64,000 nucleotides of DNA, taken from positions 1 to 64,000 of the forward strand of contig JAILLA010000002.1 in assembly GCA_024693325.1 (NCBI GenBank), written 5' to 3'. The DNA comes from Solobacterium sp. (GTDB taxonomy: Bacteria; Bacillota_I; Bacilli_A; Erysipelotrichales; Erysipelotrichaceae). This document shows, in pieces, positions 58,057-63,154 of this stretch; the first letter of the stretch is position 1, and each line of letters begins with the position of its first letter. The notes under the pieces were generated by a model. The model made no database searches and was not told where the DNA came from. It saw only the letters and a list, made by a program, of their open reading frames with translations. Both the position numbers and the translations under genes were made by a program.

Positions 58057-58605
58057 TCAGGTCAGCGGATGGGTCGTTGTTTCGAAAAAGAAATCGCTGA
58101 TCTCTTCAGGTGAGTACTGTCTGTTTGCGGTCCACCAGCGGACTGTTTCCGCAAAGTCACATATCATATGATTCAGCACATAATCGTAAGGGGCATTGTA
58201 AGCAGATTCCGGCAGTACTGCGGAGAAAAGATCTTTCAGATGCTGTTTGAAGAAATGCATGAAGATCTCGCCGCTCTCACCCGCAACAAGTCCGGGCAGA
58301 TAATCCATATGCTCCTGCAGATGATAAAGAACATGCGTGATCATCGTACGGGTATCATGGTGATCGGAAAAGTCATGTGTTTTTTCCTTCTGGAGATCTT
58401 CCGAGAAAACGTGGTCAAAGATCTCGGAGCAGAGGCTACTGAGAAGATCATCCTTTGTTTCAAAATGAGCATAAAAAGTTGTACGTCCGATATCTGCTGT
58501 GTCGATGATCTCCTGTACAGTGATCCTGGAATAGGATCCGGTTTTCAGTAATTGTGTAAAGGCATTGTATATTGCCTGTCTAGTTTTCCGTTGCCTGCGG
58601 TCCAT
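58057..58605 (-). CDS. TetR-family regulator
   Basis: This 182-residue protein has the TetR N-terminal domain (RQAIYNAFTQLLKTGSYSRITVQEIIDTADIGRTTFYAHFETKDDLL) and an all-helical C-terminal ligand domain of the DhaS-like size. The start at 58605 lies after AAAGGA; the longer reading frame upstream is unlikely. The target is not clear: no divergent enzyme is present, and the gene upstream on the other strand is an XRE-desulfoferrodoxin fusion. Confidence 0.84.
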   Translation of the reverse strand: MDRRQRKTRQAIYNAFTQLLKTGSYSRITVQEIIDTADIGRTTFYAHFETKDDLLSSLCSEIFDHVFSEDLQKEKTHDFSDHHDTRTMITHVLYHLQEHMDYLPGLVAGESGEIFMHFFKQHLKDLFSAVLPESAYNAPYDYVLNHMICDFAETVRWWTANRQYSPEEISDFFFETTTHPLT

Positions 58606-58695
58606 ATGGTCAGTTCCTTTCAATATGCATTTTTCTTCTGTTCCTGACGAACACACCGCACATTCTGATGGCGGTCTTGGCTGATCTTAATCGTA

Positions 58696-58712: not shown

Positions 58713-58843
58713 CAATGTTCGGTAACAAATACAGTATGCGTAAATGATATACGGTTGTCAATGCTTGAACTGCTGCTCTACTTTACGTAGATAGCGGGAT
58801 CCTCTCATCTGTTCTACAATCTGATTGCAGGAGGGCAAACAGG

Positions 58844-59515
58844 ATGGATCAATATGTGACAGGAGCAGTCATCAAAGAACTGCGGGAGAAGAACCGGATG
58901 ACACAGCTTCAGCTGGCTGAAAAGATCGGCGTCAGCGACAAGACAGTCTCTAAATGGGAAAACGGAAAAGGGTACCCGGATATTACTCTGCTGGAACCGA
59001 TCGCAGCGGCTTTCCGCATCTCAGTAGCCGAACTGATCTCAGGGAATACAGTACGCAATGCCAATGTATCTGCGAATATGCTTCGTTCAAAGTTTTATGT
59101 ATGTCCAGTATGCGGAAATGCGATCCACAGTACCGGTGAAGCAGTGATCCAATGCCATGGGGTATTGCTGAAACCTCTGGAGGCGGAACAAACGGATGAA
59201 GAGCACATGATATTCATTGAACGTGTTGAAAATGAGTACTATGTCCGCATCGGACATGAGATGTCAAAACAGCACTATATCTCTTTCATCGCAGCTTTAT
59301 CACCTGATGAGATACAGATGGTCAGGCTGTATCCGGAAGGTCCGGCTCAAGCGTATTTCAGGATGCGGGGAGTCAAAAAGATCTGTTTCTTCTGCAATCA
59401 TGACGGACTGTTCTCCATCGAAGTGATGAAGGGCATTGACGATAAGGACAGAAGTTATGACGACACACAGGAACGGATGGAACTGGAAAGGGCAGCTGCC
59501 AGGTTATTCGGCTGA
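58844..59515 (+). CDS. XRE regulator fused to a desulfoferrodoxin/superoxide-reductase-like domain
   Basis: This 223-residue protein has an XRE helix-turn-helix (residues 8-62: MTQLQLAEKIGVSDKTVSKWENG) fused to a desulfoferrodoxin-like region: rubredoxin-like CPVC (87-90) and CH (104-105), then DEEHMIFIERVENEYYVRIGHEMSKQHYISF with candidate Fe ligands His121, His138 and His144, and CFFCNHDGLF with Cys184 and His186. In canonical superoxide reductases the last motif is C-x-x-H; here it is C-x-H, and one of the four Cys of the first centre is missing. It may be a redox-sensing repressor rather than an enzyme. GGAGGG precedes the ATG. Confidence 0.8.
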   Translation: MDQYVTGAVIKELREKNRMTQLQLAEKIGVSDKTVSKWENGKGYPDITLLEPIAAAFRISVAELISGNTVRNANVSANMLRSKFYVCPVCGNAIHSTGEAVIQCHGVLLKPLEAEQTDEEHMIFIERVENEYYVRIGHEMSKQHYISFIAALSPDEIQMVRLYPEGPAQAYFRMRGVKKICFFCNHDGLFSIEVMKGIDDKDRSYDDTQERMELERAAARLFG

Positions 59516-59536
59516 AACTTCATTCATATGACAGAG

Positions 59537-59562
59537 ACACCTGCGCAGGGTGTTTTTTCTTT
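59537..59562 (+). terminator. Rho-independent terminator
   Basis: ACACC (59537-59541) and GGTGT (59549-59553) flank a CTGCGCAG core and are followed by TTTTTCTTT. It serves the XRE-desulfoferrodoxin gene. Confidence 0.75.
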
Positions 59563-62962: not shown

Positions 62963-63154
62963 ATGGAACGCTTGGAAGCTTTTGAAAAAATGCTGGACGA
63001 TATCCGCAGACAGGCTGATCTTGAGAAAAGGAAAATGGATGAGCTGAAGGCTGAAGGAAAAGAAAAAACAGCAACTTACCGTCAGTATTTCGGAAACCGT
63101 CTTGTACTCAAAACGATCCTGGATAAGTACAGGGAATACGGCCTTCTGGACTGA
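62963..63154 (+). CDS. Short coiled-coil protein
   Basis: This 63-residue protein is almost wholly helical and charged (FEKMLDDIRRQADLEKRKMDELKAEGKEKTATYRQYFGNRLVLKTILDKYREYGLLD), with heptad spacing typical of a coiled coil. GAAGGGG precedes the ATG, 31 bases after the phosphatase gene, so it may be co-transcribed. No family is recognised. It is followed by a strong terminator. Confidence 0.65.
   Translation: MERLEAFEKMLDDIRRQADLEKRKMDELKAEGKEKTATYRQYFGNRLVLKTILDKYREYGLLD

Follow-up and report, generated by a model that had tools for sequence, protein, structure and literature searches.

A helix-turn-helix protein with a rebuilt desulfoferrodoxin-like domain in Solobacterium sp., a putative self-controlling sensor

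The window analysed here, a stretch of 64,000 nucleotides from Solobacterium sp. (contig JAILLA010000002.1), carries near its end a single, real open reading frame that encodes a fusion of an XRE-type helix-turn-helix (HTH) with a desulfoferrodoxin (Dfx)-like domain. The gene and the elements around it are:

58778..58790, plus strand: dyad CTAC-TTTAC-GTAG, the proposed operator, conserved among relatives
58792..58797, plus strand: poor -35 slot TAGCGG, 17 nt before the -10 box
58815..58820, plus strand: -10 box TACAAT, 24 bases after the dyad
58844..59515, plus strand: XRE-HTH / Dx-SOR fusion gene, open frame of 223 aa, stop included
58871..59035, plus strand: XRE helix-turn-helix domain, residues 10-64 (HTH_3, E 1.7e-16)
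59087..59416, plus strand: desulfoferrodoxin-like domain, residues 82-191 (TIGR00320, PDB 2ji2, model Z 13-15)
59102..59158, plus strand: remodelled centre I, codons C87, C90, C104 and His105 (2ji2 alignment)
59204..59404, plus strand: remodelled centre II, codons H121, H138, H144, C184 and Asp187 (2ji2 alignment)
59423..59512, plus strand: C-terminal tail, residues 194-223, with a predicted helix at 208-222 (tail motif; helix in the model)
59533..59557, plus strand: terminator-like hairpin behind the gene (consensus scan)

The gene is probably transcribed alone, since a hairpin lies behind it and the next gene downstream is on the opposite strand; the consensus scan found two such hairpins on both strands, against 0.7 in shuffled sequence. 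Upstream, a TetR-family gene (58057-58656, minus strand) is divergent from the fusion gene and has the upstream region in common with it. This divergence is not conserved, as a minus-strand frame occupies that place in only 24 of 107 loci of the Cys3His type described below. Further along, a 63-aa frame (62963-63154, plus strand) matches HNH_repeat with an E-value of 8.1e-4, below the Pfam cut-off.

A sequence-only reading of this DNA had described an XRE DNA-binding domain joined to a domain like that of superoxide reductase (SOR), and both parts were recovered. HTH_3 scores 60.4 bits, against a Pfam gathering score of 23. Over residues 82-191 the NCBIfam model TIGR00320 gives an E-value of 2.7e-10, but its 40.5 bits remain under the cut-off of 146.9, and Pfam Desulfoferrodox (E 0.049) is likewise below its cut-off; the solved Dfx structure 2ji2 was matched with an E-value of 1.5e-8. 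The desulfoferrodoxin match is not a chance one, since every row of the relatives' alignment (97 of 97) matches TIGR00320 at E <= 0.01. Structure prediction, a check that the earlier reading had named, returned a SOR fold and not the absence of one. In the AlphaFold2 model (80-row alignment; mean pLDDT 84, pTM 0.57) the C-terminal part superimposes best on 1y07 (Z 15.1, rmsd 1.9, 114 aligned residues), followed by 1dfx (Z 13.4) and 2ji1 (Z 13.2), and the N-terminal part resembles P22 C2 and SinR (Z around 11). The relative placement of the two domains is not fixed by the model, given the low pTM and a pLDDT below 50 for linker residues 70-76.

SOR enzymes reduce superoxide at an Fe(His)4Cys centre, and the lysine before the first His matters for catalysis. 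In the alignment with 2ji2 three of the centre-I cysteines are retained in the window protein (C87, C90 and C104) and the fourth is replaced by His105, in agreement with the earlier remark that the first centre has lost a Cys. Of centre II, H121, H138, H144 and C184 are kept, D187 replaces the last His, and E120, preceded by E119, stands where the lysine would be. The resulting arrangement (E119, E120, H121-x16-H138-x5-H144-x39-C184-x2-D187) departs from the enzyme motif (E)(K)H(x)19-27H(x)5H(x)40-63C(x)2H, as given in PMC11980386. The same reading had placed a C-x-H motif at the end of centre II, and in this it was mistaken. The letters are C184-N-H186-D187, and it is D187 that aligns with the ligand His; the C-x-H reading arose from H186, which sits on a variable position (R in 94 and H in 11 of 118 Cys3His relatives), and C-x-H was rejected as a new ligand motif. 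As aligned, the true change at the last centre-II ligand is from C-x-x-H to C-x-x-D.

Relatives were collected from genome_contigs (the best 80 of 557 by similarity to the query) and from whole genomes. Once five frames without CxxC and duplicates had been removed, the set comprised 269 distinct C-terminal domains. An HTH was detected in 230; the 39 frames "without HTH" include a small number of fusions with a truncated or overlooked N-terminus. Such a fusion, which the sequence-only reading had proposed to look for in other anaerobes, has been known as HTH-Dx-SOR since 2011. A sample of one family had matches to the C-terminal domain at E <= 1e-22 in 69 of its 299 genomes, and a sample of its class in 77 of 391, where at least two frames are too short for an HTH. 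The closest named relative among the best 80 of 557 is from a goat-gut Solobacterium MAG, with a domain 94% identical.

The 230 fusions fall into two types by the fourth position of centre I, which is His in 118 (Cys3His) and Cys in 112 (Cys4), a Cys3His share that is biased upwards, as the genome_contigs loci were chosen for their resemblance to the query (best 80 of 557); the share is 27 of 64 in the family sample and 10 of 72 in the class sample. The last centre-II position follows this division, being Asp in 113 of the 118 Cys3His fusions and His in 93 of the 112 Cys4 fusions. All 118 Cys3His fusions have the positions of C87, C90, C104 and His105, and H121 (114), H138 (117), H144 (117), C184 (117) and D187 (113) are nearly invariant, the four residues H121, H138, H144 and C184 occurring jointly in 114. 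The lysine before the first His is found in 21 of the 230 fusions versus 34 of the 39 frames without a detected HTH. The full set of SOR residues (E, K, three His, Cys and the last His) is present in none of the Cys3His fusions, in 3 of the 112 Cys4 fusions and in 34 of the 39 frames without HTH. The C-terminal tail motif is likewise specific, occurring in 82 of 118 Cys3His versus 0 of 112 Cys4 fusions. Two other frames of the same genome (G000:C23:19257-19634 and G000:C107:19661-20047; 144 and 132 aa) are 27% and 32% identical to the domain and have no detected HTH; judged by these matches they are separate desulfoferrodoxin-like genes.

When 166 fusions were placed in a tree with 8 Dfx rows, built without the two state columns, the centre-I state changed about four times. 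The subclade of the window protein sits among the HTH-Dx-SOR fusions, and 56 of the 59 Cys3His tips form one clade (SH-aLRT 84, quick search), with three elsewhere. The pairing of Cys3His with Asp is therefore mainly a matter of common descent. A repeated, independent coupling of the two centres was considered and dropped, as about four changes, with two independent pairs on well-supported branches, are too few for a test. Some relatives look broken (L013, L015, L336 and L352). G134 and G019 each have a single stop within the match; an internal deletion remnant (G931) and an altered frame (G666) both still lie behind the dyad.

The inverted-repeat search covered the 160 bases upstream of each gene (regions shorter than 100 bases were dropped, leaving 220 of 230). 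The dyad CTAC-N5-GTAG precedes 77 of 90 non-redundant Cys3His genes (shuffle mean 0.1) and 25 of 105 Cys4 genes, or, counting all rows, 100 of 114 and 25 of 106. In the family sample 32 of 62 genes are preceded by the GTAG form, and in the class sample 19 of 70. Neither dyad form, GTAG or the CGTT variant described below, was found within 2.5 kb, or the shorter stretch present, at 11 of 114 Cys3His and 51 of 106 Cys4 genes. Elsewhere in the same loci the dyad is rare (18 strand-counts, that is nine sites, per 2.64 million strand-bases), and four of the nine precede likely operons of fusion genes.

In 70 of 101 aligned Cys3His promoters, and in 19 of 48 Cys4 promoters, the distance from the dyad to the start of a -10-like box is exactly 24 bases. 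Within the largest Cys3His group (the T/N-helix group) the -10 matches five or six of six positions in 77 of 90 promoters. The -35 slot starts with TTG in 7 of these 90 versus 46 of 51 Cys4 promoters. If the transcript starts 7 bases after the -10 box, as is assumed here, the dyad would be centred near -43 and so lie outside the transcript. The window also permits a second promoter, TTGAAC (58765-58770) with TAGATA (58788-58793), whose 17-nt spacer would hold the dyad; its TTGAAC -35 is not conserved among the aligned promoters of relatives. A class-I promoter scan listed three sites, all on the minus strand, and the proposed promoter was not among them.

The form of the dyad goes together with the end of the recognition helix of the HTH. 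Where WE is followed by T, N or another residue, 115 of 154 promoters carry the GTAG half and none the CGTT half, whereas with R or C after WE the counts are 8 (GTAG) and 25 (CGTT) of 61. Restricted to the Cys4 type, the comparison gives 22 and 0 of 47 versus 3 and 25 of 56. The Fisher values (7.5e-17 and 2.8e-16) overstate this evidence because the rows are related, and the five Cys3His proteins with R or C in the helix all keep the GTAG half, which speaks against a simple rule. On balance the promoter comparisons point to the HTH as the reader of the dyad. XRE proteins with a similar HTH but other C-terminal parts, among them an XRE-ABC fusion, show the same layout with a variant dyad. One such protein (L332:1570-2703) was tested and carries an ABC-transporter ATPase domain, with similar ones in L340, L358, L360 and L361. 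In several Lachnospiraceae-type genomes a near-identical dyad (TCTACCGTTGGTAGGT) and a -10 box precede the XRE-ABC genes, so this arrangement of the promoter extends beyond the Dx-SOR fusions.

Candidate targets were sought with the strict dyad plus -10 box in the 299 genomes of one family. This gave 51 places in 48 genomes, against 15 places for the reversed control. They comprise 33 fusion promoters, 2 that resemble remnants of fusion genes (G931 and G666), 8 other XRE genes (one, L355, assigned by a near-identical site alone), 2 CAT-family genes (G881 and G768), 1 FMN_red gene (G720), 1 acylase gene (G914), which itself precedes a fusion gene, and 4 unassigned places. Looser patterns matched the fusion gene's own promoter in most genomes that had a match. 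Many further targets from these patterns were rejected, since the reversed control was about as frequent (16 versus 17 places; 38 versus 42); for the same reason, scattered loose matches carry no meaning without a -10 box and a gene. At four extra sites inspected, the -10 slot is good in G720 (TAAAAT), fair at one site of G639 (TATTTT) and absent at the other G639 site and in G888.

The enzymes linked to the fusion were followed in fusion-bearing genomes picked by hand (35 for CAT, 34 for FMN_red). With the G881 gene as query, a perfect dyad was found at 3 of 27 CAT genes, all three among the four nearest to the query, which is itself one of them; the fourth (G673) lies directly behind a fusion gene. 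A site in G686 has the CGTT half, as predicted by its R-helix regulator, with a -10 slot that matches one of six positions. Of 221 fusion genes, 6 have a CAT gene no more than three frames away, directly behind in three cases. Among eight FMN_red relatives (query G720) a perfect dyad precedes those of G720 and G901, in the latter in front of an apparent operon of the FMN_red gene and then the fusion gene; the G1137 gene lies 16 bases behind a fusion gene, and no perfect dyad was found at the other five in the 34 genomes. A methyltransferase gene of the LCM type directly adjoins the fusion gene in 8 of 221 loci (seven behind, one before). In the latter (G581) the pair is preceded by a one-mismatch dyad with TACATT at +24. 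The LCM gene tested (L042:2661-3539) belongs to PF04072, and those of the seven other loci are assigned to the same family.

Most fusion genes lack CAT, LCM, FMN_red or acylase neighbours; no linked enzyme was found at the window's own fusion gene, and among 1048 neighbouring frames no family recurs at more than 13 loci. On contig 18 of the same genome a paralogue 77% identical to the window protein is preceded by a two-mismatch dyad, with TACAAT at the same spacing. An aldo/keto reductase-like frame, named from its sequence, follows this paralogue at 24 bases. Taken together, the linked genes in relatives seem to point to small-molecule chemistry at least as much as to the superoxide, iron or oxygen sensing that had been suggested.

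An origin of the fusion from a phage or plasmid was set aside. On the phage side there was one related IMG/VR contig by alignment, one HTH-only match and one phage record, and on the plasmid side two records of a plasmid collection, of which one spans 2.6 million bases. The phage record (MT835563.1, 21718-22296; "Bacteriophage sp." from human faeces) holds a relative 55% identical over 85% of the protein, and this copy is possibly prophage-borne or mis-assigned.

The rebuilt metal sites of the relatives and the conserved dyad before their own genes suggest a self-controlling sensor and not an enzyme. We consider it fairly probable that the fusion protein is an autoregulatory one-component sensor and transcription factor, and probably an activator in the Cys3His subclade. 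The conservation of the dyad, and its change with the helix class, suggest that the XRE domain binds CTAC-N5-GTAG near -43 of its own promoter. The SOR-fold domain would very probably be without SOR catalysis, as the lysine before the first His is missing and Asp stands in for the last Fe-ligand His; it is most likely a metal-binding, sensing or allosteric part, metal binding being favoured by the near-invariance of the would-be ligands (Cys3His and His3CysAsp). A good -10 box and a poor -35 slot beside the dyad make a class II activator the most likely form in the Cys3His subclade, comparable to lambda CI at PRM. The regulon would comprise the gene itself and a few others, in some relatives including one enzyme that modifies small molecules, and the signal, as a first guess, would be the redox state or a redox-active small molecule. 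The suggestion of a sensor in place of a catalyst thus retains its footing in the loss of the C-x-x-H ligand and the lysine and in the dyad form that follows the HTH class, but not in the misplaced C-x-H motif.

Activation and repression are told apart by promoter layout only, for the second promoter in the window, with the dyad in its 17-nt spacer, would suit a repressor. An autorepressor would sit on its own promoter and block RNA polymerase until released by the signal, and it is in favour of this that the dyad touches the -35 slot and adjoins a TTG -35 in 46 of 51 Cys4 relatives. The poor -35 of the Cys3His promoters (TTG in 7 of 90), with the -10 at +24 kept in 77 of 90, implies however a weak promoter with little to repress, and we regard autorepression as somewhat unlikely. 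The SOR-derived domain could instead serve only structure or dimerisation, holding zinc or no functional metal, in a protein that answers a ligand outside redox chemistry. This would agree with a model that resembles Dfx in fold only and with the CAT, LCM methyltransferase, GNAT and acylase genes linked in some relatives. The joint retention of H121, H138, H144 and C184 in 114 of 118 proteins and the FMN_red flavoprotein gene linked in three genomes argue the other way, so that this, too, appears rather unlikely.

The protein might still work as an enzyme: a SOR or peroxidase-like catalyst tethered to an HTH and merely subject to autoregulation. The fold is kept, and with few strong sites beyond its own promoter the protein itself may be the output; yet both the lysine and the last ligand His are lost, and the genome has two further, weakly matching frames (C23 and C107) of the family with the canonical residues, which makes a catalytic role improbable. 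Drift towards loss of a decaying gene would account for the relatives with a stop (G134 and G019) or a deletion (G931), but the new residues (Asp in 113 of 118) and the promoter element are conserved across many species and the tail is kept in 82 of 118, and we hold decay to be very improbable. Returning to the self-controlling sensor, a wider scenario can be offered, though we think it doubtful. A SOR would have become the sensory part in a class of transcription factors widespread among anaerobes, one subclade of which rebuilt both centres (Cys3His and His3CysAsp), gained a C-terminal helix and lost the -35 in a switch from (auto)repression to obligate activation, such that the factor is switched on by redox-active small molecules, as is a single acetyl-, methyl- or flavin-dependent modifying enzyme in some species. 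The sensing of superoxide and redox-active compounds by strict anaerobes is only partly known, and a putative operator, a spacing rule and two types of metal site make the question directly testable by gel shift and reporter.

The window protein has the fold (Z 13.2-13.4), the domain order and most ligand positions in common with desulfoferrodoxin / 2Fe-SOR (1dfx, 2ji1 and 2ji2), and differs in its fused HTH, in the changes from Cys to His in centre I and from His to Asp in centre II, and in the lack of the lysine before the first His. The SOR of Treponema pallidum (1y07), the best structural match, has no HTH and is not known to have a centre I. With the XRE / Cro-CI regulators P22 C2 and SinR the protein has the HTH domain in common (Z around 11; HTH_3 above its cut-off), and the C-terminal parts of these regulators are not known to be SOR-like.

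The nearest described group is HTH-Dx-SOR, named by SORGOdb in 2011 with 19 proteins (PMC3116461), in which, as here, an N-terminal HTH precedes a Dx-SOR module; the window protein differs from the class, as described in the available text, in that its centre I has no CC pair and its centre II no last His. That text gives the ncDx motif as CXXCX15CC and assigns proteins with a mutated ncDx to "Atypical-SOR" (PMC3116461). The window protein reads CXXC-X13-CH, which is not an unmutated ncDx in this sense, and would on that wording be an Atypical-SOR, yet by descent it lies within the fusions. The account of the class, in the part available, describes no operator or target (PMC3116461), and our search of the open-licence literature turned up no study of what these fusions do. 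Two oxygen-response regulators of anaerobes invite comparison: OseR, of the Spx/YusI kind (PMC11481553), and TrtA, an XRE HTH protein of 104 residues whose part after residue 81 has no similarity to functional proteins (PMC12724145). Unlike for the window protein, the accessible parts of these papers mention a SOR domain for neither, and C. difficile OseR, being Spx-like by the same partial account (PMC11481553), was rejected as a relative. The fusion as such is thus already known. What is new is the Cys3His / His3CysAsp subclade, the dyad CTAC-N5-GTAG with its fixed -10 spacing and a right half that changes with the helix class, and the tie, through the same element or operon, of the fusion gene to one small-molecule enzyme in some relatives.
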